From Sulfurovum sp. NBC37-1 (GTDB lineage: Bacteria; Campylobacterota; Campylobacteria; Campylobacterales; Sulfurovaceae): 64,000 nucleotides of DNA. Below are positions 7,436 to 52,133 of this stretch, in pieces (the stretch's first letter is position 1; each line of letters starts with the position of its first letter). The translations under genes were made by a program, and so were the position numbers. Location of the stretch: positions 2,232,001-2,296,000 of the forward strand of contig NC_009663.1 of assembly GCF_000010345.1 (NCBI RefSeq), given 5' to 3'. The notes beneath the pieces are model-generated. The model was not told the origin of the DNA. It ran no database searches and saw only the letters and a list, made by a program, of their open reading frames with translations.

Positions 7436-8382
7436 AAAAAATAAGTATTGTAACAGGATGCTATAATGAAGAAGAAAATGTGGCACTTCTTATTGAAAGT
7501 GTAAAAAATATTATGCAGAATTTTTCTAACTATGAGTATGAACATATCTTCATAGACAATGCTTCTGAAGATGAAACAGTGAAAATTTTACGTGACATTG
7601 CTCAAAAAGACACATGTGTAAAGGTTATTGTAAACTCTACAAATTTTGGTGCAATACGCTCAGGCATGTATGGGCTATTACAAGCCGATGGCGATGCCGT
7701 TATCTCATTGGTCGCTGATTTTCAGGATCCTCCAAAAATGATAGCAGATTTTATCAAAAAATGGGAAGCAGGGTCAGATATAGTCTTAGCTATAAAAAAA
7801 AGTAGTCAGGAAAGTAGTCTAATGTTCAAAATTAGAAATATTTATTATCGTTTACTTGACAAACTCTCAGAAGTACCTGTATTTAAAAACTATACCGGCT
7901 TTGGACTATACGATAAAAAAGTTATAGATGCCATACGGCAAATGCATGACCCTTATCCCTTTTTTCGAGGCATGATTGCTGAGGTAGGCTATACCGTAAC
8001 AAAGATTCCCTACGATCAGCCTATACGTCTTCATGGTGTGACGAAAAACAATCTATATACCCTGTATGATATTGGCATTCTCGGTATCATCAATAATTCT
8101 AAAGTACCGCTTCGTATTGCGACGTTTACTAGCATTATTCTGGGAGTTGTCAGTTTTTTTGTCGGTCTAGGATATCTGATTGTCAAACTGATTTACTGGG
8201 ATCAGATGAGCCTGGGAATCGCTCCTATCCTTATAGGAGCTTCATTCGCCTTTTCTATACTACTATTTTTTATAGGAATTCTTGGGGAATATATCGGTAT
8301 GATCTATACACAAGTGCTGAACCGACCGCTAGTCTTTGAAAAAGAAAGAATAAATTTTGAAAAAAGAGATAAGGCACAATAA
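7432..8382 (+). CDS. GT2 polyprenyl-phosphate glycosyltransferase (GtrB/ArnC-like)
   Basis: 316 residues from a TTG start at 7432, with AGGAG at 7421-7425 and a 4-bp overlap with gtrA. The N-terminal GT-A domain begins KISIVTGCYNEEENV and has the acidic motif DFQDPP. Two transmembrane helices near the C-terminus (about 220-295) are typical of GtrB/DPMS enzymes. It is expected to move a sugar from a nucleotide donor to undecaprenyl phosphate at the inner membrane. The next gene overlaps its last base, so the GtrA, GtrB and membrane-protein genes form one unit. Confidence 0.88.
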   Translation: MKKISIVTGCYNEEENVALLIESVKNIMQNFSNYEYEHIFIDNASEDETVKILRDIAQKDTCVKVIVNSTNFGAIRSGMYGLLQADGDAVISLVADFQDPPKMIADFIKKWEAGSDIVLAIKKSSQESSLMFKIRNIYYRLLDKLSEVPVFKNYTGFGLYDKKVIDAIRQMHDPYPFFRGMIAEVGYTVTKIPYDQPIRLHGVTKNNLYTLYDIGILGIINNSKVPLRIATFTSIILGVVSFFVGLGYLIVKLIYWDQMSLGIAPILIGASFAFSILLFFIGILGEYIGMIYTQVLNRPLVFEKERINFEKRDKAQ

Positions 8383-12544: not shown

Positions 12545-14632
12545 CTACGACTCTTTGAGTATTCTGCTTGCCAGCCGGCTGACATAATCCGGTGTCTCTT
12601 TTTTGGTTTTGTCATAAATTTTGTTGACATACTGCTCGAGTACTTCATGGTTGTTGATCGCTTTTCCGAGCATCGGTACTTTGACATAGTTACCATCTTC
12701 CTGCAGTTCCCAGCGAAGCTGGTTATCTGCCAGTTGGAGCATTAGTATCTGCACAATCTTCTGTGTCAGTTTTTCTTCAAGAATAGGCGTCATAAGCTCG
12801 ATACGGCGGATCAGGTTTCGGGGCATCAGGTCTGCAGACGAGATGAAACAGTTGACTTTGTTGTGCTTGAAGTAGTAGATCCTCGGATGTTCAAGATACT
12901 TACCGATGATCGAAGAGACAGTGATGTTCTCGCTCACCCCTTTGATCCCCGGTTTAAGACAACAAATACCGCGGATGATCAGGTCAATCTTGCAGCCTTC
13001 CTGCGAAGCCAGGTAGAGTGACTTGATGATATCTTTATCCACCAGTGAGTTTGCTTTGAGGATGATATGTCCGTTCTTTCCCTGCTTCCCCTCTTTTTCG
13101 ATGAGTTTGATCAGCTTGGGCTTGATCTGCACCGGAGCCATGAACAGAGTATCGAGCTTGGTATAGGTGGAAAAACCAGTCAGAAAATGGAAGAAGTGCG
13201 TTGCATCGTTGCCGAAAGCCTCTTTGGAGGTAAAGTAGGAGATATCCGTATAGATCTTGGCTGTACTGGGGTTGTAATTCCCTGTTGCCAGATGGACATA
13301 GCTTTGCAGCTTCTTCCCTTTTCGTTTGATGACCTGTGCGATCTTCGCATGGACCTTGAGACCCGGGATACCGTAAACGACATGTGCCCCGGCATCTTCA
13401 AGCGCTTTGGCCCAGCGCAGGTTGTTCTCTTCATCGAAACGGGCTTTGAGCTCTACCAGTACCATCACCTGTTTCCCGTCCCTGACCGCATCGATCAGCG
13501 CTTTGATAATGGGTGATTTCTGCCCCGCACGGTACAGGGTCATACGAATGGCAAGCGTATCGGGGTCGGCGGCTGCTTCCTTAATGAACTGTACGACCGG
13601 TTCAAAACTGTCGAAAGGGTGGTAGAGCAGTATATCCTGTTTTTCGATGGCATCGAAAATATTCTCACTGTCCAGAGGCGGCAGTGTTTTGGGGGTGAAG
13701 GTCGGCAGCACAAGATGCGAAAGTGCTTTGTCGCCTACGATCTGCCACAGCGTACCGAGATTCAGCGGTACCCCTTTATAGGAGTAGATATCGTTCTCGT
13801 CGAGATCGAGATGGGAAAGCAAAAAATGTAGAAGCCCTTCATCGGCCCCATCCATCAGCTCCAAGCGGATCAGAGACCCTTTGTTCCTTGAACGCAGACC
13901 TTCCTGAAGAATTTCGAGGAAATCATCCGCTTCTTCCTCTTCTATCTCGATATCGGCATTTCTAGTTACCCTGAACGGAGTAGAAGCAAGATGTGTAAAG
14001 CCCGGAAAAAGTTCAGAGGCAAAATATTCCACTACACTTTCGATGGGAACAAAGGTATGGTCAACATGAATGAAACGCGGAAGGATCCTCGGTATGCGGA
14101 TCAACCCGTGCTTGATATTTTTCGAATCATCCTGGAGCGTCATCGCCAGACCGAAACTGAGATTGTTCAGGTGCGGAAACGGGTGCGTTGCATCCACCGC
14201 GATGGGTATGATAACAGGAAAGATCTCATTGAAAAATATCTCTTCAATCTGTGACTTTTCATCGGCATTCAGTGCGTCGAAATTCTTGACATGCACCCCA
14301 TGGCTGTGCAATTCGGAGATGATGGAGGCATAACAGTTTTCAAGTACTTCCTGCTCTTTGTGCAGGTATTCCCGTATTGCGTCCAGCTGTTCGGTCGGTG
14401 TGAGCTTGTCTGCGCCGGTCTCCTGTATGCGCGCCTTGAAAAGCGCCTTCAGACCTGCAACGCGTATCATATAGAATTCATCGAGATTAGTCCCGTAGAT
14501 CGCAAGGAATTTCAGCCTTTCAAGCGGGGGCAGCTTTTCGTCAAGCGCCTGTGCCAGGACACGTGAATTGAACTGCAGCCATGAGAGTTCACGGTTGAAA
14601 TAGAGTTGTGATGAATCAAGATCTATAGCCAT
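12545..14632 (-). CDS. ppk: Polyphosphate kinase 1
   Basis: 695 residues, full length for PPK1. It starts DLDSSQLYFNRELSWLQFN, the classic N-terminus, and holds IRMTLYRAG, KVHAKI and the catalytic-His segment HLATGNYNPSTAKIYTD. PPK1 reversibly polymerises the gamma-phosphate of ATP into polyphosphate. The carbonic anhydrase gene follows directly. No exopolyphosphatase gene is present in the window. Confidence 0.96.
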   Translation of the reverse strand: MAIDLDSSQLYFNRELSWLQFNSRVLAQALDEKLPPLERLKFLAIYGTNLDEFYMIRVAGLKALFKARIQETGADKLTPTEQLDAIREYLHKEQEVLENCYASIISELHSHGVHVKNFDALNADEKSQIEEIFFNEIFPVIIPIAVDATHPFPHLNNLSFGLAMTLQDDSKNIKHGLIRIPRILPRFIHVDHTFVPIESVVEYFASELFPGFTHLASTPFRVTRNADIEIEEEEADDFLEILQEGLRSRNKGSLIRLELMDGADEGLLHFLLSHLDLDENDIYSYKGVPLNLGTLWQIVGDKALSHLVLPTFTPKTLPPLDSENIFDAIEKQDILLYHPFDSFEPVVQFIKEAAADPDTLAIRMTLYRAGQKSPIIKALIDAVRDGKQVMVLVELKARFDEENNLRWAKALEDAGAHVVYGIPGLKVHAKIAQVIKRKGKKLQSYVHLATGNYNPSTAKIYTDISYFTSKEAFGNDATHFFHFLTGFSTYTKLDTLFMAPVQIKPKLIKLIEKEGKQGKNGHIILKANSLVDKDIIKSLYLASQEGCKIDLIIRGICCLKPGIKGVSENITVSSIIGKYLEHPRIYYFKHNKVNCFISSADLMPRNLIRRIELMTPILEEKLTQKIVQILMLQLADNQLRWELQEDGNYVKVPMLGKAINNHEVLEQYVNKIYDKTKKETPDYVSRLASRILKES

Positions 14633-38270: not shown

Positions 38271-40871
38271 TTAAAAGAGGTTTGCGTTCTCGTCGATCCA
38301 CTTAAGATATTCGATAATATCTTTAGTCTGTTCTTCCGTCATACCCTGGTTAGGCATACGTAGGTTGAAGTAGTTGATCATAGATTTGATATAGTCATCA
38401 TCATACATTTTTTCAGGATGCATGATCCACTGTGCAGCCCATGCTTCACCATTCTCGTGTCTCTGGAGTACACCTGTCAGGTCTGGACCTGAAGATACTT
38501 TACCAATAACGTGACATCCGTTACATCCACCTTCAAGATACGCTGCTTCACCACGCTTAGCAGCAGGGCTCATAGGTTTAGCTACTTTTTTGACCAAAAG
38601 GTCTTTCGCTCTGATACCAACGTCCGCCGTCTTAACCATATACTGCCAGATCATGTTTTCGAAGAGGATCGCTTTATCCAGATTTCCTGCTTTAACAGCT
38701 TCATCTGCTTTCTTCTTCTGCTCAGGGATCTTACCATACTGATCCAATGCATCTGTTACCAATGCTTTAATGGTCGGGAACTTCTCATAATGGTTCTCTT
38801 TAAGGAACTTCACAACACTCTGGATAACTTTGTCTGTCGCATTGTTCACTGCTACAGTCTGGTCATACTCTTTTTTGAGCTGCTCAGGACTCATTGCTGC
38901 CATTTTAAGTTTCTTGGCTGCTGTATACTTCTTGTTCGGATCTTTGACCAAGAGGTAACCCATCATCTCAAGGTGCAGTGCAGAACAGAATTCTGTACAG
39001 TAGTAAGGGAATACACCTTCAAGATCTGCTTTGAATGTTACAGCAACTGTTTTACCCGGCTCAAGAGATGTATGTACATTATACGTATCTACTGTAAAAC
39101 CATGTGTCTCATCTTCAGCTCTTTCAAGGTTTGTGAGATAGAAGGTTACTGTATCACCTTTGTTCACTGTTACATGTTCAGGGTTGATGTGTGATCTGAC
39201 CACTGTTCCGTAAACATAGACATGGTTTCCTTTTCTTACGATCTTTTCCTGACCGGCGAGTGTTTTACCTTCATGTACCTTACCTGTAAAGGCATTGGTT
39301 CCCATCTTATAACGTACTTCTGTCTTCAGTTTGCTTGCTCTGATGGCTACTGCCTGGTGAGGCTCACCCAATGGAACAGGCATATCGTAGAGCAGTTGCA
39401 TCTTTTTACCACGAATATCGATCAACTGGTGATTCTGAGGGTGCAATGGCCCGATCTCGTTAAATCTGTCAATCGCAAGTTTGTTCAATGCGATGATGTA
39501 ATCTCCCTGAGGATCTTCCGTTTTACCTTCCATACCACAAAGGTGACCGATGTTGTAGTTAACATTCTGTCTGTCTTCCACTTTACAGGTCTTGTAGTTC
39601 CATTTGACAACCTGGCTGTCAACATAGAGAGACGTATAGATCTCACCGTCTTTCCAGTTCTTACCATACTGGTTATGTAATGGCCCGAGGCCCAACTCAG
39701 CCTGACAGTGCATTGTTTTCTTCAGATCAAGAATAGGAATACCGTACGGATCTTTACCTACATACGCTTTATGCTTGATCGCATCCTGTATCTTGTCAAA
39801 ATCATACACGGTCGCATGTGTATCAAGTTTACCACAGACAACAATGCTTTTACCGTCAGGTGATACATCGACACCGTGAGGTGATTTTGGCTCTGGAATA
39901 AGGAAAAGCGCATCATTCTTGATCGCAACTTCCATAGGAATAACTCTGGTACCATTGACCATTTTTACATTTTTAGGATCTTTTGCAAGTTCAGCCAGTT
40001 TTTTCCAGTTATATACATGAAGGAAATCCGTATCGTTACGGCTCATACCCGCTTCGAATGGAGGAAGACCTTTTTCAATACCACCTGTATATAGCTCGGA
40101 GTTGAATGAGTTGGTGAATCCCCATCCGAAACTTGCTTCTTTACCTGCATCGGAAAGATCCTGCATATAAGGAGGCATTTCGATCGTAAACGATTTTTTC
40201 GGATCTATTCTTCCTATTTTCGGGTCAAACTTCCAAACTGTTACACCACCACGATACGTCTCTTTGTACTCTTCGATCGGGTGATAGTTGTTGTCAAGCG
40301 GAGCGCCGTACTGACACGCTTCCAGGATGTGCTCGGAATTCGGTGTAAAGAATGCTCCACCGTGGTCAGATTTGAAAACAGGATTCACAACGATCTGCTT
40401 GGTAACGAAGTCCTTCAAATCAATAACAGCAAGACGTGGATTGGCTTTATCATTGATAACCAGCCATTTACCGTCATATCTACCGTTTGTTTCGGAAAGT
40501 GCCGGGTGGTGTGTGTCACCCCACGTAATCTTCTTTCCTCTGATATTACCCTGGGCAAGGACTTTTTTGGTGTCATCATCATAACCCCAACCCTGCCAAG
40601 GTTCCGGTGTAAATACACCGATGTATTTGAGAATTCTCATTGACGGAACACCATACACCATTATCTGTCCGGACTGACCGCCCGAAGAGAATACGATATA
40701 TTTGTCACGTCCACCGCTTGGTGTATAGGTTTTAGCCGCTGCCAACAGGTCAGCCTGCGTCAAACCTCTCTCTTTCATCACATTATCCAGGGCACTTGCA
40801 CCAAAAAGTGTAGATACACTCAATGCAGACCCAAGAAAAAGCGATGTCAATTTGCTTAACTTGTAGCTCAT
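38271..40871 (-). CDS. nosZ: Nitrous-oxide reductase with C-terminal cytochrome c (cNosZ, clade II)
   Basis: 866 residues. The signal is Sec-type (LFLGSALSVSTLFGASA), not Tat, as expected for clade II. CuZ ligands: H121, H122, H170, H332, H399, H443 and H505. CuA ligands: H590, C625, E627 (backbone), C629, H633 and M636 (CTEFCSALHLEM). A C-terminal cytochrome c domain has heme site CNGCH at 783-787 and a late Met (RMPNQGM). It reduces N2O to N2 in the periplasm, taking electrons through the fused heme. It is the first gene of the nos run. Confidence 0.97.
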   Translation of the reverse strand: MSYKLSKLTSLFLGSALSVSTLFGASALDNVMKERGLTQADLLAAAKTYTPSGGRDKYIVFSSGGQSGQIMVYGVPSMRILKYIGVFTPEPWQGWGYDDDTKKVLAQGNIRGKKITWGDTHHPALSETNGRYDGKWLVINDKANPRLAVIDLKDFVTKQIVVNPVFKSDHGGAFFTPNSEHILEACQYGAPLDNNYHPIEEYKETYRGGVTVWKFDPKIGRIDPKKSFTIEMPPYMQDLSDAGKEASFGWGFTNSFNSELYTGGIEKGLPPFEAGMSRNDTDFLHVYNWKKLAELAKDPKNVKMVNGTRVIPMEVAIKNDALFLIPEPKSPHGVDVSPDGKSIVVCGKLDTHATVYDFDKIQDAIKHKAYVGKDPYGIPILDLKKTMHCQAELGLGPLHNQYGKNWKDGEIYTSLYVDSQVVKWNYKTCKVEDRQNVNYNIGHLCGMEGKTEDPQGDYIIALNKLAIDRFNEIGPLHPQNHQLIDIRGKKMQLLYDMPVPLGEPHQAVAIRASKLKTEVRYKMGTNAFTGKVHEGKTLAGQEKIVRKGNHVYVYGTVVRSHINPEHVTVNKGDTVTFYLTNLERAEDETHGFTVDTYNVHTSLEPGKTVAVTFKADLEGVFPYYCTEFCSALHLEMMGYLLVKDPNKKYTAAKKLKMAAMSPEQLKKEYDQTVAVNNATDKVIQSVVKFLKENHYEKFPTIKALVTDALDQYGKIPEQKKKADEAVKAGNLDKAILFENMIWQYMVKTADVGIRAKDLLVKKVAKPMSPAAKRGEAAYLEGGCNGCHVIGKVSSGPDLTGVLQRHENGEAWAAQWIMHPEKMYDDDYIKSMINYFNLRMPNQGMTEEQTKDIIEYLKWIDENANLF

Positions 40872-40928
40872 TATTTCCTCCTAAAGAATTTTAGTCAACA
40901 ATGCAACAGCATTATTGCCCATAGCTCC

Positions 40929-40971
40929 ATTATAGCTTATTATTATTATTAAGATAATTGATTTACGTCAA
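40929..40971 (-). promoter_or_regulatory. FNR-type box and -10 of nosZ promoter
   Basis: TTGATTTACGTCAA (40958-40971) matches TTGAT-N4-ATCAA at 9 of 10 positions. A perfect TATAAT lies on the minus strand at 40934-40929. The predicted start is near 40922, placing the box centre near -42. An FNR/Crp-family activator such as NssR is the likely regulator. Confidence 0.65.
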
Positions 40972-40972
40972 G

Positions 40973-40991
40973 AATTTAACACTAATTTAAC
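40973..40991 (-). promoter_or_regulatory. 11-bp direct repeat upstream of nosZ
   Basis: GTTAAATTAGTGTTAAATT on the minus strand contains GTTAAA twice with an 11-bp period, right beside the FNR-type box. The same arrangement occurs before the copper receptor gene and before tonB. Period and form suggest tandem binding by an OmpR-family regulator. Confidence 0.5.
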
Positions 40992-41131
40992 ATTTGGGTA
41001 GAAAGGGATATCTTTTTTGCTGGTATTTTAAAATATTTAAGAAAAAAGGATTGTCAGGATCAGCATGCAGGAATCAGAACAAAAAAACAATAGCAGGGAT
41101 GCGGCTGAGCATCAGCTCACCCTGCACAGTA

Positions 41132-43144
41132 TTAAAACTTATAACTCAGGTTTGTATAGATATAACGTCCTGGTTCATTCATAAGCATTACTTCACCGCC
41201 ACCTGAAATAAGTGTCAGGTCCTCATAGGTGTTCGAAACGGCATAAGTTTTGTCAAAGAGGTTATCTACACCTACCGTTACTTCAAAGTGATCCGCAAAC
41301 GTTTTGCTTCCTTTAAGATTGAGCACGGCATATCCGGGAAGGTACTGCTCACCATTGTCTGCATCATAGTCATCCCATGCACTTGCCGCAACAACTTCGG
41401 CGCGCAGCAGATAGTCGCCAGGCTCTTCAAGGTTGATCCCCGCAATCAGTTTCATTGGCGGGATCTCCGGCATATTGGTTCCGGTCTGTCCACTAAGAGG
41501 GTTATCCTTTTCACCTTTCTGGAAGGAGAGTGCCCCGTCAACATACAGGTTATCCGTCACGATATAGCTTCCGCTTACTTCAAAACCATACAGTGTCGCA
41601 TCCATATTCTCAAAACGGTGAATCATTTTATCGGCATTGTAGAAGATGAAATCTCCCAGTTCGCTGTAGAAGAATTTTGCTTTGAGTGTTGCATCTTCAA
41701 ACTGTGTCTCTCCGCCAATGTCAAATTCCGTATTGGTCACAAGGTCCAGATCAGGAGTTCCAAGTACCTTGCCTTTTTTCTGAAAATAGAGTTCCCGTCC
41801 GTCCGGTACTCTTGACGAACGGCCTACGCCTCCAAAGAGTTTTGTCTTTTCATCCATATGGTAGGTTAACAATATATTTCCGTTCAACGCGTTGTAGTCA
41901 TTACTTTGCAATGTTCCCAGACCGGGTTCTACCGATGTATCGTCATATCTCAAGCCAAGATCGACTTCAAACTTGTCAAAATGTATCTTGTCTTTGGCAA
42001 AAAAGGCGATATTTTCCGTATCGACATCAGGGATACTCACCCCTTTATACATATCGTTCTTTCCATAATAGGCACCGTTCCAGTTACGCAGACTGTAATC
42101 GATACCCAGCGTCACTTCATGATTGTCAAGATCGAATCTGTTTTTGATCTTGGCTCCCTGCGTGTCAGTAGTCAGCCAGTTCTTCATCAACATCATATTG
42201 GATGCTTTTCTGTACTTATTGCTCATAGGATGATCCACGTCTGATTTGTACAGCTGTATATCAAGCTCTTTGGAGTAGCGTCCCAGTTCGTTGAGGACAT
42301 ATTCCGCATTATAGATATTGGAATCATCATACAAGGCATCCATTGGTGTCGTCGGGTAGAGGACATCATCACTTCTGTTGCCCGTATAGCTCAGTTTCAG
42401 CTGCTGGTTATCCGTAATATCCCAGTACATCTTTGCCAGAACAGTCTTCTTTGTAAAAGCATCCATATCACGATATTGAGGCAGGAGTGCTTGCCCTTTC
42501 AACTTTTTGTCATGGACCGGATTGCCGTTCAGGTTATCGGCGATATAGTTATCCATCTGCTGGGCAAAATTATTACCGTCGCCATCTTCATACTGACCTC
42601 CGCGTTCGCCCGAAGCACTCAGAAGGAATCTGATACGATCCGTACCGCCGCTGATCATGGCCGAAGCTTTTTTGTAATCCCAACTACCGAAATTCAAAGC
42701 TGCATCACCATGAAGCTCTTTGGTAGGCTTGAGCGTTTCTACATCCACGTTTGCGCTCAATGCACCAAAACTCTCTACATCAAAAGGACCGTCATCTATA
42801 GCGATATAGTCAATGTTGTTTGCCAGGACATGTGAAATAGGAGGGTCCATCCTGTTCGGACAGGCACCGTAGATCTTTGCGCCATCTATTGTAACATTGA
42901 TATTGTCCTTCTTCTGTCCACGGACAATAATATCGTTTGCGATCCCACTTCTTCGTACCAACGTCACAGAGGATGACTGCTTCATCAAAGCTTCGGCCAC
43001 ATCGGCTGACCTGATATCCTCCCCATGTACATCTTTGACCACTTCCGTATCGACCTTTGCTTCCACGTCGATCGTGCCAAGCTCTACTTCTGCTGCATAC
43101 AGCGACATGGCACACACCAAAGAGAGATAGATTCCCTTTTTCAT
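41132..43144 (-). CDS. TonB-dependent copper receptor (OprC/NosA-like)
   Basis: 670 residues with a signal peptide. The plug domain carries ACPNRMDPPIS (94-104), whose Cys and Met residues match the copper site of OprC/NosA. The barrel ends in an aromatic C-terminus (YIYTNLSYKF), the outer-membrane sorting signal. It is expected to import copper across the outer membrane for NosZ. The gene lies 260 bp from the nosZ start and is followed upstream by tonB on the same strand. Confidence 0.9.
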   Translation of the reverse strand: MKKGIYLSLVCAMSLYAAEVELGTIDVEAKVDTEVVKDVHGEDIRSADVAEALMKQSSSVTLVRRSGIANDIIVRGQKKDNINVTIDGAKIYGACPNRMDPPISHVLANNIDYIAIDDGPFDVESFGALSANVDVETLKPTKELHGDAALNFGSWDYKKASAMISGGTDRIRFLLSASGERGGQYEDGDGNNFAQQMDNYIADNLNGNPVHDKKLKGQALLPQYRDMDAFTKKTVLAKMYWDITDNQQLKLSYTGNRSDDVLYPTTPMDALYDDSNIYNAEYVLNELGRYSKELDIQLYKSDVDHPMSNKYRKASNMMLMKNWLTTDTQGAKIKNRFDLDNHEVTLGIDYSLRNWNGAYYGKNDMYKGVSIPDVDTENIAFFAKDKIHFDKFEVDLGLRYDDTSVEPGLGTLQSNDYNALNGNILLTYHMDEKTKLFGGVGRSSRVPDGRELYFQKKGKVLGTPDLDLVTNTEFDIGGETQFEDATLKAKFFYSELGDFIFYNADKMIHRFENMDATLYGFEVSGSYIVTDNLYVDGALSFQKGEKDNPLSGQTGTNMPEIPPMKLIAGINLEEPGDYLLRAEVVAASAWDDYDADNGEQYLPGYAVLNLKGSKTFADHFEVTVGVDNLFDKTYAVSNTYEDLTLISGGGEVMLMNEPGRYIYTNLSYKF

Positions 43145-43187
43145 CGTAACTCCTCCAAAATTGTTTTGGGTATTGTGGCATGCTTCT

Positions 43188-43204
43188 GTTAATTATGTGT
43201 TAAT
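43188..43204. promoter_or_regulatory. 11-bp direct repeat upstream of the copper receptor gene
   Basis: GTTAATTATGTGTTAAT (plus strand) carries GTTAAT twice with an 11-bp period, 44-60 bp before the start codon. It closely matches the site at 44011-44027, which has exactly the same distance to tonB. Confidence 0.5.
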
Positions 43205-43238
43205 TTTATCTTTTTTATAAGGAAAGTAATGAAATTTG

Positions 43239-43967
43239 CTATCTTAGCTGATACCGAAGCGTCAAATTGACCGTTTTGGGAAGAGAAAAGGGAACATTTT
43301 TCGTAGAGATGGGAAATGCCTTTTTCACCGCCTTGCGTGCCGAGCTGTGAAAGACTTTGGGACCGCTGACCAAAATGTTCCCTACATGACCGTTGGGAAG
43401 TATGGTAAAATGCACTTTAACCGACCCCTGCATGCCTCTGCGTTTGGCAATACGCGGGTAACTTTTGTTCCGGTTGATCCGTTGTCTCACCGTAGCCAGA
43501 AAACGGTTTTTCTCTGAGGCACTGGCATGTCCGCTTCCCCGGCGTTTTACTCCTACCCTGCTGCTTTGTGCCGTACGTGTTCTGATCTTTTTTTTCTTGA
43601 CTTTTTTCTTCTTTTTGATCTCTTTCTTTTTTGGCTTTGGCTTTTTTACTTCAGGTACAGGAAGTACTTTGGGTTTGACAGGTTCCGGGATGACCTTTTC
43701 AACCACCGGCTCCTCTTTAACAATCGGTTCAGGCTCTGGTTCGGGTTCAGGCTCCGGTTCTTCTTCTACAACCGATTCTTCTTCCACCTCCTGGGTTTCG
43801 GGAACCACTTCGGGAACGAATTCGCTCAGGCAGAGCTGGATGGCACTGTCCTGCGCTGCCTGATCTGCAATAATATAGGTACGTATCAGGTAGAAGTACC
43901 CCCCGAAAAGCAGGGCGTAGAGAAGTGTGGTAATGATGAAGGATACCAGATTGCGATGTTTGACCAC
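43239..43967 (-). CDS. tonB: Energy-transducing protein TonB
   Basis: 242 residues from a GTG start at 43967 with AAGGGA upstream. One N-terminal transmembrane helix (LVSFIITTLLYALLFGGYFYL) is followed by a long Pro/Glu- then Lys-rich spacer and a C-terminal TonB domain (SYPRIAKRRGMQGSVKVHFTI). It spans the periplasm and passes proton-motive energy to receptors, most likely the neighbouring copper receptor. No exbB or exbD is in the window. Confidence 0.93.
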   Translation of the reverse strand: MVKHRNLVSFIITTLLYALLFGGYFYLIRTYIIADQAAQDSAIQLCLSEFVPEVVPETQEVEEESVVEEEPEPEPEPEPEPIVKEEPVVEKVIPEPVKPKVLPVPEVKKPKPKKKEIKKKKKVKKKKIRTRTAQSSRVGVKRRGSGHASASEKNRFLATVRQRINRNKSYPRIAKRRGMQGSVKVHFTILPNGHVGNILVSGPKVFHSSARKAVKKAFPISTKNVPFSLPKTVNLTLRYQLR

Positions 43968-44048: not shown

Positions 44049-45449
44049 CTATGCCAGATAGATCACCTCTTCAGGCTCCACGATATGTGCTTTGGCATGC
44101 AGTTCATTCTCAAGTACAGAGCGCAGGATCACCTCTTTGTCCTCTTCTCCATGCACAAGATAAATACGCTTAAGATCTTCGATCTGCGATATCCATTTGA
44201 CAATGCCTTTCTGGTCCGCATGGGCGGAGAATCCGTTAATGGTATGAATACTCGCCTTGATGAGGATATCTTCATTGTAGATCTTCACCCATCGTGCTCC
44301 GTCAACGATATGTCTTCCCAAAGTACCGACGGCCTGATAGCCGACAAAAATAACGGCATTCTTCTTGTTCCATAAACGGTTTTTGAAATGATGCAGTATT
44401 CTGCCGCCGTTGCACATACCGCTGCCCGCGATGATGATCGCACGGGTATCCATGTCGTTGATGGCTTTGGAAGCTTCTACATCAAGGGTATAGACAAGGT
44501 TCTCAAAATCGAAGATCGTTCCATCTTCTTTCTTGATCTCCTGACACTCGGAACTCAACAGTTCGGAATAGTTCCTGTACACTTCCGTTGCACGGGTCGC
44601 CATAGGGCTGTCGACAAATATTTTGCACTGCGGCAACTCTTTTCTCCTGTGCATCTGCTTCAGGATGCAGAGAAGTTCCTGTGTCCGTTCCACGGCGAAT
44701 GAGGGGATGATGACATTTCCCCAGTCTTTCATGGTCTTGATGATCACGCTTTTGAATTCCGTAACAGTATCTTCTACACCTTGGTGGTCACGGTCGCCGT
44801 AGGTGGACTCTACATACAGATAGTCGGCATGAGTACACGGAGCAAGGTCTTTCATGACGATCTCGGTATCGTTGCCTATATCTCCGGAGAAGACTATTGT
44901 ATGGTCCACGCCGTTCTCTTTATAACGTATTTCAATGAAAGCGGCCCCGAGAATATGGCCGGCATCCCGGTAGGTGATCTCTATACCATCCTCCAGAGTG
45001 AAAGACTTGTCATATTCCGGATAGTGCCAGCCAAACTCGAACACATCTTCCACATCTGCTTCTGCGTATAAGGGTTCCATGACACCCTCTTCTTTTCCCT
45101 GCCGCTGGGCCTTTTTGTATTTGGTGTTAAAATCTTCCTTCATGATCTTGGCACTGTCAAGCAGAATGATCTCGGCAAGGTCATGTGTCGCGTGGGTCGC
45201 ATAGATCTTTCCGGTAAATCCCTCCTTTACCAACTTCGGTATGCGCCCAACATGGTCCAGATGGGCATGGGTGACCAACAGATAGTCCACTTCGGAAGGA
45301 TTAAAATCAAAAGGACCGTAGTTACGCTCCTCTTCCTGCCCCTGGAACATCCCGCAATCCACAAGAATTTGAGGACCTCCGTCTATCGTAAACAGGTGAC
45401 AGGAGCCGGTCACCACTTCCGCTGCACCGTAGGAGACGACTGTAGCCAT
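44049..45449 (-). CDS. Metallo-beta-lactamase/beta-CASP RNase-like protein
   Basis: 466 residues from the ATG at 45449, which has AAGGA 7 bases upstream. The metal site VTHAHLDHVGR, SGDIGND and the late GFSAHADQ, followed by YLVHGEEDK, mark a beta-CASP nuclease of the CPSF-73/Ysh1-like group. Family members cut RNA, so a role in mRNA processing or decay is likely but unproven. It is transcribed away from the antiporter-ATPase gene. Confidence 0.88.
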   Translation of the reverse strand: MATVVSYGAAEVVTGSCHLFTIDGGPQILVDCGMFQGQEEERNYGPFDFNPSEVDYLLVTHAHLDHVGRIPKLVKEGFTGKIYATHATHDLAEIILLDSAKIMKEDFNTKYKKAQRQGKEEGVMEPLYAEADVEDVFEFGWHYPEYDKSFTLEDGIEITYRDAGHILGAAFIEIRYKENGVDHTIVFSGDIGNDTEIVMKDLAPCTHADYLYVESTYGDRDHQGVEDTVTEFKSVIIKTMKDWGNVIIPSFAVERTQELLCILKQMHRRKELPQCKIFVDSPMATRATEVYRNYSELLSSECQEIKKEDGTIFDFENLVYTLDVEASKAINDMDTRAIIIAGSGMCNGGRILHHFKNRLWNKKNAVIFVGYQAVGTLGRHIVDGARWVKIYNEDILIKASIHTINGFSAHADQKGIVKWISQIEDLKRIYLVHGEEDKEVILRSVLENELHAKAHIVEPEEVIYLA

Positions 45450-45588
45450 GAAGGTTCCTTTCAATTAGATTAGATTCTCATTCTACTCTTTCTTATTTTA
45501 CACTATGCTTTTATGGCACGACTTGGCTTTGGCATATATTTATCCAAATCAGTGGTATAATAAAACATTTCAGAAACAAGGCTAAATA

Positions 45589-48500
45589 ATGAGCAGTGAG
45601 ATAGTAGGGCAATTTTTATTGTTGTTGGCACTGCTTTTCGGACTGACCTATATTTTGGCCGGTTTTATGGAACGTTTGCGGATCCCGGGTATATTGGCTG
45701 CACTTTTTGTCGCCATGGGTGCACACTATACCCCGATCGGTGATTTGCTTTCCCATGGTATCTTCAATGAGATCTTTACCCTGCTTGCCGAACTGGGCGT
45801 ACTTTTTTTGCTTTTCTTTATCGGTCTGCAGATCGATATGCAGGAGATGCGTTCGCAAAGTAAAAACATCATAATAGCCACGGTATTGAACACCATCATC
45901 CCTTTTGGACTGGGTATAGCAGTGATGCGCTACCTGGGGTATGACTGGATGGTATCTTTTGTGGTGGGATTGACCCGTATGCCCACAGCCGAAGCGGTGA
46001 TAGTACCCATACTGGATGAATTCAATCTTATCAGAACCAAGGTTGGCAACTATATTGTAGGTGCGGGTGTCCTTGATGATGTGATAGAAGTCTTCCTTAT
46101 CGCTTTTGTTTCTCTGTGGATTGGCGATAAAAGCGGGTTGGTCCCAAATGATTCCACTGCGATAATCGACCTTGTACTCAATATTATCATCTTTATTGCT
46201 GCTGCCTGGGTGGTACACAAATGGATCCTTCTTCCTCTCTCTCATTGGTTAAAGATACGGGTTGCCAATCTCATTTTATTAATGATCATCGTTCTTTTTG
46301 TTTTTGGTGGGTTTGCAGAACGAACGGATCTTGGTCTGGTTGTAGGTGCCATTGTGGCAGGTATGCTCATGCGTCCGGTCTTTACTATGGCAGGGGATGT
46401 AGGCATTCAGGCCACCAAGGCAGTGCGAGCCGTGAGCTACGGCTTTTTTGGCATTGTCTTTTTCTTATGGATAGGTATGAGTGTTGATCTCAGCGGTATG
46501 ATTAAAGCACCTGAACTTGCAATCCTGCTCTTTCTGGCTGCCTTCGTAGGTAAGATCATCGGTATTTTTCTCATGGTCCCCATGGGACAGCTTAACAGCA
46601 AAGAAGCATGGACGATCGGTATCGGACTGAACGCCCGGCTTACTACCGAGATCATCGTGGCAAAACTTTTACTCGATGCACAGTTGATAGACATCCAGCT
46701 CTTTACTGCACTGGTAGCGGCTTCTTCTGTCTCTACGATCGTAGTACCGCTTCTTTTCTCTCTGTTGGTTTCGTTCTGGAAAGAAACGCTGATGCAGTCT
46801 GCTGTATCCAAAACAAAAAAGAAAAAAATAGAAAAACCTGAAAAAGAACAAATACCGTGGTATGCCCAAAAGTTCGACACGGTATACAAGACCCTGGGTA
46901 CTGATCCGCAAAAAGGTCTAAGCAAAGATGAAATAGTTCAGCGTCAGGCACACTATGGTCCAAACCGTATCCGTTCAGTACACAAAGAAAAATGGTACTG
47001 GATACTCTTCAGACAGTTTACGGATGTTCTGATCATCATCCTGCTTATTGCCGCGGCAATTTCCTTTGCCATAGGAGAAGTAGGTGATGCCGTCACTATC
47101 ATGATCATTGTTATTTTGAATGGTATTCTCGGATTCATACAGGAGTATAAAGCTGAAAAAGCCATAGAAGCACTCCAAAAAATGCTTTCCCTGCGCTGTA
47201 AGGTTTTGAGAGACGGAGAGAAAAAGGAGATCGATTCAACCAAACTGGTCCCCGGTGATATCGTTTTTCTCGAAATCGGAGATAAAATACCGGCAGATCT
47301 CCGGCTCATTGAGGCAGTCAACCTCAAAGTAGACGAGTCCGCGCTGACCGGAGAGTCCGTTGCTTCTTTGAAAAACACAAAAGCTGTACCTCAAAAGAGT
47401 GCATTGGGGGAACGGAGCTCCATGGCATGGATGGGCACCAATGTGGTCAATGGCTATGCCAAAGGCATCGTCGTTGCTACGGGTATGCAAACTGAATTCG
47501 GGAAGATCGCAAAAATGACCAGTGAGGTGGGCAGCACACAGACACCTTTACAGAAAAAACTGGCGGTTTTGGGTAAAAAACTCGGGATCTTCTCTGTTGC
47601 CATCGCAGCGTTTGTCGCCATCATCGGATACCTTCTGGGCAAAGATATGATGGAAATGTTTCTGACGGGCATCTCTCTCGCCGTAGCGGTCGTACCTGAA
47701 GGTCTGCCGGCAGTTGTGACCATTACACTGGCACTCGGTGTCAAAGCGATGGTCCGCCAAAAAGCCCTGCTTCGCCGTTTGCAGGCAGCTGAAGCACTGG
47801 GTAGTGCCAACGTCATCTGTACTGATAAAACAGGCACACTCACACAAAACCAGATGACCGTACAAAAAGTATGGCTTTTTAGCGGTGAAATAGATGTAAC
47901 AGGAAGCGGATATGATCCAAAAGGCCACTTTGAAAAAGATAAGAAAAAGGTGGATTACAAAAAGAGACAGGATCTGATTGAACTGCTCAAAACCGGGCTT
48001 GTCTGTACCCATGCCGGGCTGACCAAGGAAAAGGATGAATGGAAGATCACCGGTGAACCCACAGAAGCATCATTGATCGTTGCAGCCTATAAAGCCTGGC
48101 TGACGCCGGAAGTGGACGAAAAGATCACCACAGAGTTCTCTTTCAATTCTCAGAGAAAACGCATGAGTGTCATCGTTCAGGAAAAAGGCAAAAATATCGC
48201 CTATATCAAAGGAGCACCCGAAGTACTCCTGGAACGTTCAAACTACTATTTCGACGGGGAAAAAGTACAAGCGCTTGATGCACAGAAGAAAAAAGCCTTC
48301 GAGGATGCCTACAGCCAACTGGCACGAAACGGCCTGCGTACACTCGCACTGGCAAAACGTGTATTGCCTAAAGGGATCAAACTCGATGCCGATGCGGTGG
48401 AGAACGATTTGGTTCTCCTGGGAGTCGTCGGCATCATCGATCCGCCAAGACCCGAAGTACATCATGCCATACAAACAGCCAGAACGGCAGGTATCAATGT

Positions 48501-49557
48501 AGTGATGATCACCGGAGATGCACCACTTACTGCCATGGCGATCGCAAAAGAGGTAGGTTTGGATGCCAAGCATGGTATTACAGGCAGCCAACTGGATACG
48601 CTTGATGATGACGCTTTGAAAAATGCGATACATGAAGGAGCGATTTTTGCCAGAACTACCCCGGCAGACAAAATACGAATTGTCAAAATACTGCAGGATG
48701 AAGGCCTGGTTACGGCCATGACCGGTGACGGGGTCAATGATGCACCCGCACTTAAAAAAGCCGATATCGGTATTGCCATGGGAATGAGAGGAACAGATGT
48801 CGCCAAAGGTGCAGCAGACATGATACTGCTTGATGACAATTTCGCCTCCATCATCAATGCAGTCAGAGAAGGACGCAGGCAATATGATAACATCAAGAAA
48901 TTTGTCACCTATCTGCTCTCATCGAATATCGGAGAGGTCATAGCGATCTTTGTCAATATCCTTCTGGGAGGACCGCTGATCCTCCTGCCTGTGCAGATCT
49001 TATGGATGAACCTGGTCACGGACGGGATGACCGCTGTGGCATTGGGCATGGAAAAAGCTGAAAAAGGTACCATGCATCGTCTGCCAAGGGCCAGCAGTGA
49101 ATCTTTCCTCCAATACAGAGGAATTCTCATGATCATACTGTTGGGCGGATATATCGGTGGTGCTACACTATGGATATTCCATCATTATCTCAGTTCCGGC
49201 CTGCCTGAAGCACAGGCCATCGGGCTGGCACAGACCGCTGCTTTCACAGCTATCATCATTTTGGAGAAAATGAATGTATTCAACTACCGTTCTCTGCATG
49301 CCCCTATCTACACTATGGGCTTTTTCAGCAATATCTGGCTGATCGCTGCATGGCTGGTGACCGTTTCTTTGCAGGTAGCAGCCGTTTATGTACCATTTCT
49401 GCAGGATGCCCTGCATACCGTTCCGCTTGGCTGGAAAGACTGGCTTCTGATCTTTGAGATCTCCCTGCCGATCTTTGTCGTGACCGAACTTTACAAAACA
49501 GTAGAATGGTTCTTGTTAAAATCCAAAAACGCACATACAGAGAAAGAAGGAGCCTGA
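45589..49557 (+). CDS. Fusion: CPA2 cation/proton antiporter + P-type Ca2+-ATPase
   Basis: 1322 residues in one uninterrupted frame. Residues 1-405 are a Kef/CPA2-type antiporter with about 12 helices, including the TM4/TM5 motifs TRMPTAEAV and GVLDDV (D163, D164). After a Lys-rich linker (408-422), residues 425-1310 form a P2A ATPase: TGES 587-590, PEGLP 703-707, phosphorylated D746 in CTDKTGT, KGAPE 874-878 and TGDGVND 1045-1051. SERCA-type Ca2+ ligands are all present: E704, N1113, E1116, N1141, T1144, D1145 and E1226. A TATAAT box is at 45556-45561. It probably exports Ca2+, perhaps with H+ exchange coupled in the same protein. Confidence 0.9.
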   Translation: MSSEIVGQFLLLLALLFGLTYILAGFMERLRIPGILAALFVAMGAHYTPIGDLLSHGIFNEIFTLLAELGVLFLLFFIGLQIDMQEMRSQSKNIIIATVLNTIIPFGLGIAVMRYLGYDWMVSFVVGLTRMPTAEAVIVPILDEFNLIRTKVGNYIVGAGVLDDVIEVFLIAFVSLWIGDKSGLVPNDSTAIIDLVLNIIIFIAAAWVVHKWILLPLSHWLKIRVANLILLMIIVLFVFGGFAERTDLGLVVGAIVAGMLMRPVFTMAGDVGIQATKAVRAVSYGFFGIVFFLWIGMSVDLSGMIKAPELAILLFLAAFVGKIIGIFLMVPMGQLNSKEAWTIGIGLNARLTTEIIVAKLLLDAQLIDIQLFTALVAASSVSTIVVPLLFSLLVSFWKETLMQSAVSKTKKKKIEKPEKEQIPWYAQKFDTVYKTLGTDPQKGLSKDEIVQRQAHYGPNRIRSVHKEKWYWILFRQFTDVLIIILLIAAAISFAIGEVGDAVTIMIIVILNGILGFIQEYKAEKAIEALQKMLSLRCKVLRDGEKKEIDSTKLVPGDIVFLEIGDKIPADLRLIEAVNLKVDESALTGESVASLKNTKAVPQKSALGERSSMAWMGTNVVNGYAKGIVVATGMQTEFGKIAKMTSEVGSTQTPLQKKLAVLGKKLGIFSVAIAAFVAIIGYLLGKDMMEMFLTGISLAVAVVPEGLPAVVTITLALGVKAMVRQKALLRRLQAAEALGSANVICTDKTGTLTQNQMTVQKVWLFSGEIDVTGSGYDPKGHFEKDKKKVDYKKRQDLIELLKTGLVCTHAGLTKEKDEWKITGEPTEASLIVAAYKAWLTPEVDEKITTEFSFNSQRKRMSVIVQEKGKNIAYIKGAPEVLLERSNYYFDGEKVQALDAQKKKAFEDAYSQLARNGLRTLALAKRVLPKGIKLDADAVENDLVLLGVVGIIDPPRPEVHHAIQTARTAGINVVMITGDAPLTAMAIAKEVGLDAKHGITGSQLDTLDDDALKNAIHEGAIFARTTPADKIRIVKILQDEGLVTAMTGDGVNDAPALKKADIGIAMGMRGTDVAKGAADMILLDDNFASIINAVREGRRQYDNIKKFVTYLLSSNIGEVIAIFVNILLGGPLILLPVQILWMNLVTDGMTAVALGMEKAEKGTMHRLPRASSESFLQYRGILMIILLGGYIGGATLWIFHHYLSSGLPEAQAIGLAQTAAFTAIIILEKMNVFNYRSLHAPIYTMGFFSNIWLIAAWLVTVSLQVAAVYVPFLQDALHTVPLGWKDWLLIFEISLPIFVVTELYKTVEWFLLKSKNAHTEKEGA

Positions 49558-49560
49558 TCT

Positions 49561-50838
49561 ATGGACTACATACTGGTAAAATCTCTATTGATCGCAGTTT
49601 TGCTCGGCTTTGCCATAGGACTTCAGCGTACGATGTCCCATCTCTACAGTAACGATGTCGGATTCGCCGCAGGTTCACGTACATTTGCACTGATATCACT
49701 TCTGGGATTTATGTCAGGATGGATGTACCAATTTGCCCCTTCCCTTATAGTGGTCGTCTCTGCCTCTATAGCAGGTATCATCATACTTTCGTATTATATG
49801 AAGAACATCCATTACAAGAAAATGGGGATGACCTCCCAGATCGCCGCGATCATCACCTACTTGCTTGGGCTGATGACCTATTTCCATCTGGAGCAATATG
49901 CTATTTTCATCGGGGTTATGATGATCGTCCTGCTTGACATCAAACCAAGACTGCAGAGAATAGAAAAGAACATCACTCCCACAGATCTGAATGCCAGTAT
50001 CCTGCTACTTGCTATGACCTTTTTGATCCTTCCCATCCTGCCCGATGAGATGATCGGCCCCTATAAGCTCTTCAATCCCTACAAAACATGGCTCATGGCC
50101 GTTATCATTGCAGCGATCTCCTTTGTGGGCTACATTGCTATCAAGATCCTTGGGAACAAGCAGGGCGTACTGCTTACAGGGCTTTTCGGCGGGCTTATCT
50201 CTTCTACTGCTGTTTCAATCTCCCTCTCAAAGATGTATACAGCGCAAAAAGAGTATCTGAACAATTATGCGGCAGGTATTGCCATCGCCTGTACCCTGAT
50301 GTATCTGCGTGTACTTTTTGAAGCACTGGTAATTAATATGGAAGTTGCCTGGCATTTGCTCCTGCCTTACACTCTGGCTGCCTTGAGCGGTTTCGCCTAT
50401 GTCTATATCGTCTATAAACAGGCTACCCAAACAGCACCGGGTATACAGAACGAAATACTAAATAAGAATCCCCTGCAGCTCAGTGAAGCCATCAAATTCG
50501 GTATACTTTTCGGAGTCATCTATGGTGCCATTACCATAGTCAAACAAGGATATGGAGATATCGGTGTTTACATTGTCTCTTCCTTTTCGGGCATTACCGA
50601 TGTCGATGCCATTACCCTTTCACTCTCACAGCTTGAAGCCGACAATAAACTGCCTATACTGACTGCCGTCAACGGGATCATTATCGCTTCTGTCGTCAAC
50701 ACTTATGTCAAGCTGGGGATCGTTTTCTGGATGGGTGGCAGAAAGTTGGGCATCAGAGTATTATGGTTCGTCCTGATCACCACAGGCATGATAGGGGCAG
50801 GCGTCTGGATAAACATCCTCCTGCCGTTCATAACCTGA
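49561..50838 (+). CDS. MgtC/DUF4010-like membrane protein
   Basis: 425 residues, almost wholly hydrophobic. The N-terminal part has LLGFAIGLQRTMSH and SRTFALISLLGFMSG, as in MgtC/SapB proteins, and the C-terminal part (about 170-420) is a DUF4010-like domain (TGLFGGLISSTAVSISLS, SSFSGITDVDAITLSLSQL). The function of the family is unknown; MgtC-type proteins influence Mg2+ and membrane energetics. It begins 3 bases after the fusion gene, so the two are co-transcribed. Confidence 0.83.
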   Translation: MDYILVKSLLIAVLLGFAIGLQRTMSHLYSNDVGFAAGSRTFALISLLGFMSGWMYQFAPSLIVVVSASIAGIIILSYYMKNIHYKKMGMTSQIAAIITYLLGLMTYFHLEQYAIFIGVMMIVLLDIKPRLQRIEKNITPTDLNASILLLAMTFLILPILPDEMIGPYKLFNPYKTWLMAVIIAAISFVGYIAIKILGNKQGVLLTGLFGGLISSTAVSISLSKMYTAQKEYLNNYAAGIAIACTLMYLRVLFEALVINMEVAWHLLLPYTLAALSGFAYVYIVYKQATQTAPGIQNEILNKNPLQLSEAIKFGILFGVIYGAITIVKQGYGDIGVYIVSSFSGITDVDAITLSLSQLEADNKLPILTAVNGIIIASVVNTYVKLGIVFWMGGRKLGIRVLWFVLITTGMIGAGVWINILLPFIT

Positions 50839-50846
50839 CAAAAAGT

Positions 50847-52133
50847 TCAATGTGAACTGTTTTTCGGCTCGGAGGCCTCTTCCGCCTGTGTGACATACTT
50901 TTTGCGTATATCGAACTGCAAACTGGTCAGGTAACCGACCAGCACCACACTGACACCCGTAGCCACCAGAATGTTGTAATCAAAGGTCAGTTCGAGGGCA
51001 AGCACCACTGCTGTCAACGGCAGTTTCATCACCACCCCCATAAAGACCGCAGAACCCACTGCTGCAAAAAAGAATGGCTCAAAAGGAAAATGGGAATAAA
51101 AGGTAATGATCTCACCGTAACCGTATCCGACCAGTGCTCCAATGCTCATCAGCGGCAGGAAGAGCCCACCTACAGCATTGGCATATAAAGCGACCGTTGT
51201 CCCGATAATACGCAAAATGATAATCAGAAATATAAAATAGACTGAGATCGATTCCTTATTATTGATAAGGTGCATCACTATCTCTTTCCCCGAAAATCCT
51301 GCATGCGGTTCGATGAGCAGCACCGTTCCTACAACGCTGCCGCCTATCAGAGAGAACACCATATTTCTCATTGTACGGAACTTCTTAAAGATCTCAAGGT
51401 CTATGATATGCAGAAGTCGTTTTTTCATAAAAAGGTAGAGATAGACAAAGAATGTGATGAATGGGATGAAGATCAGGATCGGCATGACATAATAGTAATC
51501 AAATTCTTTGCCCAGGGAACTGTGAAATGAGATGGAGTCCAAAAATTTCACTGAGATTGAAAAAGCGACCACTGAACTCAGAATCACATATCCTATATAC
51601 TGTTTGATAAACTGGTAGGCGATATTCTCTATGGAAAAGACGATTCCCGTAAGCGGAGAAACGAAGATCGCGGCGATACCGCTGCTCGCTCCCACACTGA
51701 TCATCATCTTGACCAGCATTGTCGGAAGATTGAACAGACGGTGTATCTGATAGGCCACCATCGCTCCCATACCTGCAGACGGGCCCTCCGTACCCACGGC
51801 ATATCCACTGGAAACCGAAAGCGTGGATGCAATAACCTTGAGAAAAAGTGTTTTGACATTGATAATCAACTTGTTCTGACTCACAGAATCAGCGATCTCC
51901 GTCAAACCATATTCGCGGATGTAATTGTCTTTGGAGATCAAATAATTGACAATAAAGATCGCTACGGTCGGTACTACATAAAGATACCAGGTAGGTAATA
52001 CAGGGATCGTTTCAAAAGGGTCCCCCATGAACAGCAGCCGTGTTGTAAATGCAATCAGCATTTCATAAAAGGTAATGAAAAATCCACTGATAACACCCGT
52101 CAACAATGTTGCGATTATCAGTTTGGCAATCAT
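50847..52133 (-). CDS. ClC-family chloride channel/transporter
   Basis: 428 residues with about ten helices. The anion-gate motif is GTEGP (E116 keeps the gating Glu) instead of GREGP/GKEGP, and GGLFLPLMSIGALVG matches the GxFxP motif. The first selectivity motif GSGIP is not evident. There are no CBS domains. The protein may be a Cl- or F- transporter or channel. It ends 8 bp from the convergent MgtC-like gene. Confidence 0.87.
   Translation of the reverse strand: MIAKLIIATLLTGVISGFFITFYEMLIAFTTRLLFMGDPFETIPVLPTWYLYVVPTVAIFIVNYLISKDNYIREYGLTEIADSVSQNKLIINVKTLFLKVIASTLSVSSGYAVGTEGPSAGMGAMVAYQIHRLFNLPTMLVKMMISVGASSGIAAIFVSPLTGIVFSIENIAYQFIKQYIGYVILSSVVAFSISVKFLDSISFHSSLGKEFDYYYVMPILIFIPFITFFVYLYLFMKKRLLHIIDLEIFKKFRTMRNMVFSLIGGSVVGTVLLIEPHAGFSGKEIVMHLINNKESISVYFIFLIIILRIIGTTVALYANAVGGLFLPLMSIGALVGYGYGEIITFYSHFPFEPFFFAAVGSAVFMGVVMKLPLTAVVLALELTFDYNILVATGVSVVLVGYLTSLQFDIRKKYVTQAEEASEPKNSSH

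Follow-up and report, generated by a model that had tools for sequence, protein, structure and literature searches.

Gene Organization of the Locus

The window analyzed here is a stretch of 64,000 nucleotides of Sulfurovum sp. NBC37-1 (NC_009663.1, positions 2,232,001 to 2,296,000), a genome represented by a single contig of 2,562,277 bases. One forward-strand frame in this window was found to encode an antiporter followed by a P-type ATPase. The frame, its functional residues, and the gene that follows it are given below in window coordinates.

45589..49557, + strand: antiporter-ATPase fusion ORF; ATG start, 1322 aa, without internal stop
45589..46797, +: NapA-like CPA2 antiporter domain, residues 1-403 (PF00999; model compared with NapA)
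45991..45993, +: E135, TM4 crossover; subfamily-specific acid (34 of 34 in the family; mostly T in other CPAs)
46075..46080, +: D163-D164, CPA2 ion/proton site, equivalents of NapA D156-D157 (family-invariant)
46087..46089, +: E167, one turn past DD; subfamily-specific acid (34 of 34 in the family; V/A/G in other CPAs)
46552..46554, +: K322, TM10, equivalent of NapA K305 (invariant)
46648..46650, +: E354, TM11 crossover; TTE in place of the usual GE motif (34 of 34 in the family)
46798..46878, +: Lys-rich linker, residues 404-430 (alignment of fused homologues)
46858..49500, +: P2A Ca2+-ATPase domain, residues 424-1304 (Pfam, NCBIfam, and PDB matches)
47698..47700, +: E704, site II, equivalent of SERCA E309 (alignment, family conservation)
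47824..47826, +: D746, phosphorylated Asp of DKTGT (motif)
48925..48936, +: N1113 and E1116, equivalents of SERCA N768 and E771 (alignment to SERCA)
49009..49023, +: N1141, T1144, and D1145, equivalents of SERCA N796, T799, and D800 (alignment to SERCA)
49264..49266, +: E1226, site I, equivalent of SERCA E908 (alignment to SERCA)
49561..50838, +: membrane protein with MgtC and DUF4010 domains, 425 aa (55.0 and 212.7 bits, over cut-offs)

Pfam recognized Na_H_Exchanger (PF00999) at residues 19-392 of the fusion (1.5e-40, 139.6 bits), followed by Cation_ATPase_N (424-492), E1-E2_ATPase (532-723), Hydrolase (742-1059), and Cation_ATPase_C (1129-1304). All five matches exceed their own cut-offs, and the P-type ATPase domains are complete and in order. 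It had been proposed in a preliminary description of this DNA that an intact CPA2 antiporter and an intact P2A ATPase share one chain; the complete domains, catalytic motifs, and ligands bear this out, and D163-D164 and the phospho-acceptor D746 were found at the positions given there. The fusion appears to be a new architecture built from known families. Codons 405-425, named earlier as the place where a break might be revealed, contain no stop or frameshift, and a 97%-identical relative (G064) reads through them with an identical linker. Many independent genomes, single-contig ones among them, read through the junction, which rules out a sequencing error or an overlooked stop there. The host genome encodes other P-type ATPases and has six other Na_H_Exchanger matches; none of fusion length was found among the matches listed. 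A full-chain structural model (residues 1-1195 only; pLDDT 53.7, pTM 0.36) was too poor for domain contacts to be read.

Several neighboring genes were identified. The segment at 38271-43967 encodes a nitrous oxide reductase-like protein with a cytochrome c domain, a TonB-dependent receptor, and TonB. The best NCBIfam match of the receptor is a copper receptor, below the cut-off; this set of genes may serve to supply copper for NosZ. The gene at 44049-45464 (−) encodes a divergent beta-CASP ribonuclease; its best NCBIfam match is the type VII CRISPR Cas14 (419 bits against a cut-off of 800), and it is probably an ordinary beta-CASP RNase. A CLC-type chloride channel/exchanger gene (50847-52133, −) is convergent with the MgtC-DUF4010 gene; it is retained in the closest relative (L077) and was not seen beside the other loci.

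Antiporter Half

Both sequence and structural model point to NapA, the CPA2 Na+/H+ antiporter of Thermus thermophilus (4bwz). The model (pLDDT 72) matched NapA with a Z score of 38.6 and an rmsd of 3.4 over 378 aligned residues, and 13 helices were predicted. With this number of helices the antiporter C-terminus is expected in the cytoplasm, as in NapA, on the side from which a P-type ATPase has to start. The cut-off of TIGR00932 (CPA2) was not reached (102 vs 238.3 bits), suggesting a divergent CPA2-like subfamily.

A DD pair is usual in NapA-like members of CPA2. Its presence here had been read as a sign of ion exchange rather than of a degenerate domain. D163, D164, and K322 are invariant across the antiporter family, and a degenerate domain was ruled out by the invariant residues together with the dN/dS values given below. 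The DD pair thus points to an active antiporter without singling out its ion. The upstream region was scanned for a riboswitch that might name the ion, and no Rfam match was detected.

Three further acids distinguish the family. At the positions of E135, E167, and E354, the residues are mostly T, V/A/G, and G/A/S, respectively, in 30 further Na_H_Exchanger loci from this order, in a comparison that includes a few poorly aligned rows from a wrong frame. Based on the alignment with NapA, we infer that these acids sit where TM4 and TM11 cross and one turn away from DD. Given such extra invariant intramembrane acids, the ion of the antiporter could be a divalent cation.

Ca2+-ATPase Half and Linker

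The ATPase half had been described as SERCA-type with every Ca2+ ligand in place. This holds for the two-site ligand set: all SERCA side-chain ligands checked for sites I and II are present, in M4, M5, M6, and M8, and do not vary among the 38 family ATPases with coverage of these sites. Overall similarity, in contrast, is closer to the PMR1/SPCA type, the best matches being TIGR01522 in NCBIfam and ATP2C1 in PDB, with LMCA1 also near. The scores fall just below the cut-offs of both TIGR01522 (PMR1-type; 768.8 vs 798.3 bits) and TIGR01116 (SERCA-type; 667.7 vs 703.4 bits). The catalytic motifs DKTGT (D746), TGES (E589), and TGDGVNDAP (at 1045) are intact, as had been stated, and D746 and E589 are conserved in the family. 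The D800 position is Ala or Asn in P-type ATPases at the same loci outside the fusion family. The pump half is most straightforwardly read as a putative two-site Ca2+ pump.

From W397, the last tryptophan of the antiporter, to the ATPase there are 39-43 aa in the main fused clade; in a second fused lineage (L159) the spacing looks similar by eye. Residues of the linker change fast among homologues; its length is constant. Its Lys-rich composition agrees with the positive-inside rule.

Distribution of the Fusion

A search for the same architecture in Campylobacterota, which the preliminary description had recommended, revealed about 20 fused loci spread over five family codes, some of them in single-contig genomes, so homologues are not always encoded as separate genes. 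Fifteen are complete frames of >1300 aa; further examples are L032, L033, L041, and L045 from the named collection, and G1246. The nearest named relatives are Sulfurovum and related vent Campylobacterota. The distribution is patchy: a close relative of the antiporter was present in 18 of 397 genomes (4.5%) drawn evenly from the class. Of the Na_H_Exchanger matches listed from 60 genomes in this order, only members of the fusion family had frames >1200 aa. No fusion was found among 369 genomes of Gammaproteobacteria and about 300 from the Desulfobacterota side, and none of 459 plasmid records covered 80% of the query. Both the antiporter and ATPase halves are under purifying selection (dN/dS about 0.05-0.12), and the linker is relaxed.

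Split Operons and Origin of the Fusion

Relatives in which antiporter and ATPase are separate, overlapping or adjacent genes were identified in Campylobacterota (L093, L095-L099); they are about 50% identical in the antiporter and about 60% in the ATPase. The gene order antiporter, Usp (universal stress protein), ATPase was observed in Gammaproteobacteria/Desulfobacterota (L100, L101, and L124, with Usp genes at 13661-14065, 1828-2229, and 7448-7837, respectively). Within this set the antiporter directly adjoins the ATPase at L126, with no Usp between them, and at L103, L123, and L125 the antiporter and Usp are followed by a contig end or by no ATPase match.

The fusion derives from such an operon. 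A single origin was abandoned when L159, a fused frame of 1309 aa, was found inside the split clade (support 100/99) as sister to the split locus L096 (82% identical). This nesting suggests that fusion, by operon read-through, probably happened twice. Alternatively, one old fusion could have been followed by repeated fission. Under either history the two forms interconvert, with the fused one retained repeatedly. Rooting the antiporter tree on L004 was rejected because that sequence is too distant to trust.

Each half also occurs alone. The antiporter without the ATPase was detected at three loci (L089, L094, and L112), in the complete single-contig genome G209, in G049 (72% complete), and in G024. 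On the tree L089 and L112 cluster with the fused genes, which indicates that the ATPase was lost there; the placement of L094 (G024), which forms a long branch, is unsure. ATPases without an adjacent antiporter (L104-L106, G547/G062) fall within the fused clade. One of them (L106, 12548-15409) has instead a short extra N-terminal stretch containing a single hydrophobic helix, which may be a remnant. Internal stops or frameshifts interrupt the fused genes at L088 (G204), L108 (G082), and L035. G209, of the same genus as G204, lacks the ATPase half entirely.

The MgtC-DUF4010 Partner

The MgtC-DUF4010 gene, which went unmentioned in the earlier description, begins 3 nt past the stop codon of the fusion. 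It lies within a few tens of bases downstream in nearly all Campylobacterota loci checked, including those with the antiporter only. The exceptions are L033 and L089 (200-300 bp), L091 and L092 (1.8 kb), and L093, which is without the gene. Seeming absences at L081, L082, L084, and L092 were overturned by tblastn. Next to the gamma and delta operons that were inspected, no MgtC-DUF4010 gene was detected. Judging from gene arrangement, this protein is functionally tied to the antiporter at least as strongly as to the pump. No described function of DUF4010 was found in the open-access literature searched, and a sequence search of PDB returned no solved relatives of the protein.

Possible Function of the Fused Transporter

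What is shown above concerns the architecture of the chain, its conservation and operon origin, the intact ligands, and the way the halves can part; which ions move, in which direction, and with what cooperation is inferred. We favor, while giving it no better than an even chance, a co-localized two-ion extrusion module over an obligately coupled exchanger. The C-terminal 900 residues would act as an ATP-driven P2A exporter moving Ca2+ out and H+ in, and the N-terminal 400 residues as a NapA-like H+-coupled antiporter moving a cation out and H+ in. The flexible cytoplasmic linker of about 40 residues would ensure 1:1 synthesis and side-by-side placement of the halves. Both activities would most likely share the local currency of H+ and membrane potential and act jointly against mixed cation stress (Ca2+ plus Na+/K+), with MgtC-DUF4010 as a third component, probably regulatory or transporting. 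Obligate coupling is unlikely because the halves are separable in nature, and the antiporter, kept without the ATPase and still beside MgtC-DUF4010, appears to act on its own.

The extra invariant acids of the antiporter, in which it differs from NapA and KefC, fit this reading less well. They could reflect export of one divalent ion by both halves, the antiporter exchanging Ca2+ (or Mg2+/Mn2+) for H+ with high capacity and low affinity and the ATPase pumping with high affinity, which is possible but on balance unlikely. E135, E167, and E354 would join D163/D164 near the TM4/TM5/TM11 crossover in 34 of 34 family members, against very few of the 30 other CPAs, and monovalent CPA2 antiporters do not usually have so carboxylate-rich a site. 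Both constant partners have links to divalent ions, one being a Ca2+-ATPase and the other an MgtC-family protein, and Gdt1 has been reported as a Ca2+/H+ antiporter alongside Pmr1 (PMC4830978). The nearest structures, NapA and KefC, nevertheless move Na+ and K+, and the closeness of the acids is drawn from the NapA alignment. We know of no characterized CPA2 member that is a divalent antiporter. It is likewise doubtful that pump and antiporter are functionally coupled around such a divalent site, with Ca2+ exported by both ATP and proton motive force.

A simpler proposal, that fusion serves co-expression and stoichiometry only and the transporters have no mutual influence, agrees with the unconstrained linker sequence, the separate loss of either half, and the maintenance of split versions; it seems rather unlikely given a fusion that seemingly occurred twice with near-equal linker length and was kept across five family codes. 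Influence of one half on the other could also be regulatory: the linker joins the ATPase at the N-terminus leading to the A domain, and KefC has its regulatory RCK domain at the same position after the antiporter, so the antiporter might mainly sense pH or ions and gate the pump by way of the N-terminus of the actuator domain, or gating might run from pump to antiporter, much as SLC9C1 and SOS1 antiporters carry regulatory domains. We regard this as very unlikely, as the catalytic residues of the antiporter are invariant and, unlike a mere sensor, it persists without the ATPase. Finally, it had been suggested that the antiporter recycles H+ imported by the pump. Ca2+-ATPases do counter-transport H+ and both halves are intact, but H+ enters as Ca2+ leaves through SERCA-type pumps, and it also enters through NapA/KefC-type antiporters under proton motive force. 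With H+ normally imported by both halves, recycling is doubtful and would need an antiporter reversed by an inward Na+ gradient; the separability of the halves also argues against tight matching, making this the most improbable of the proposals.

Comparison with Known Systems

Ordinarily a primary pump and a secondary antiporter are distinct proteins, linked solely through shared ion gradients. The antiporter half shares with NapA its fold, 13 helices, DD pair, and K305 equivalent; it is 22% identical, and NapA lacks a fused ATPase and the equivalents of E135, E167, and E354 and has GE where the fusion family has TTE. KefC, a K+/H+ exchanger (8bxg), also combines the CPA2 fold with a cytoplasmic module after the antiporter, but has QD instead of DD, and its C-terminal module is an RCK domain, not an ATPase. 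The pump half has the full domain set and catalytic motifs of SPCA1/PMR1 (8iwp), LMCA1 (6zhf), and SERCA1. It is nearest overall to SPCA1 with a ligand set as in SERCA, and differs from these P2A Ca2+-ATPases in its N-terminal antiporter and its scores below the TIGR01522 and TIGR01116 cut-offs. Other chains that combine an antiporter with a large extra functional module are SLC9C1 and SOS1, in which the module is regulatory, whereas here it is a second active transporter.

Bacterial SERCA relatives have been reported to adjoin Na+-H+ exchanger genes (Front Genet 2020, PMC7016017). This is the same pairing as neighboring genes, and the portion of that report consulted makes no mention of fusion. 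In the yeast Golgi, Pmr1 and Gdt1/TMEM165 place a Ca2+-ATPase and an H+-coupled antiporter in one compartment, although as separate genes and with an antiporter of the unrelated family UPF0016 (PMC4830978). No description of an antiporter-ATPase fusion was found in the open-access literature searched, and absence there is no proof of novelty.

The operon of antiporter, Ca2+-ATPase, MgtC-DUF4010, and sometimes Usp provides a functional context for DUF4010. As fused, split, and half-deleted versions exist in related genomes, the value of tethering is directly testable, and this conserved, probably recurrent fusion represents a natural experiment on whether a pump and an antiporter in a single chain work differently.
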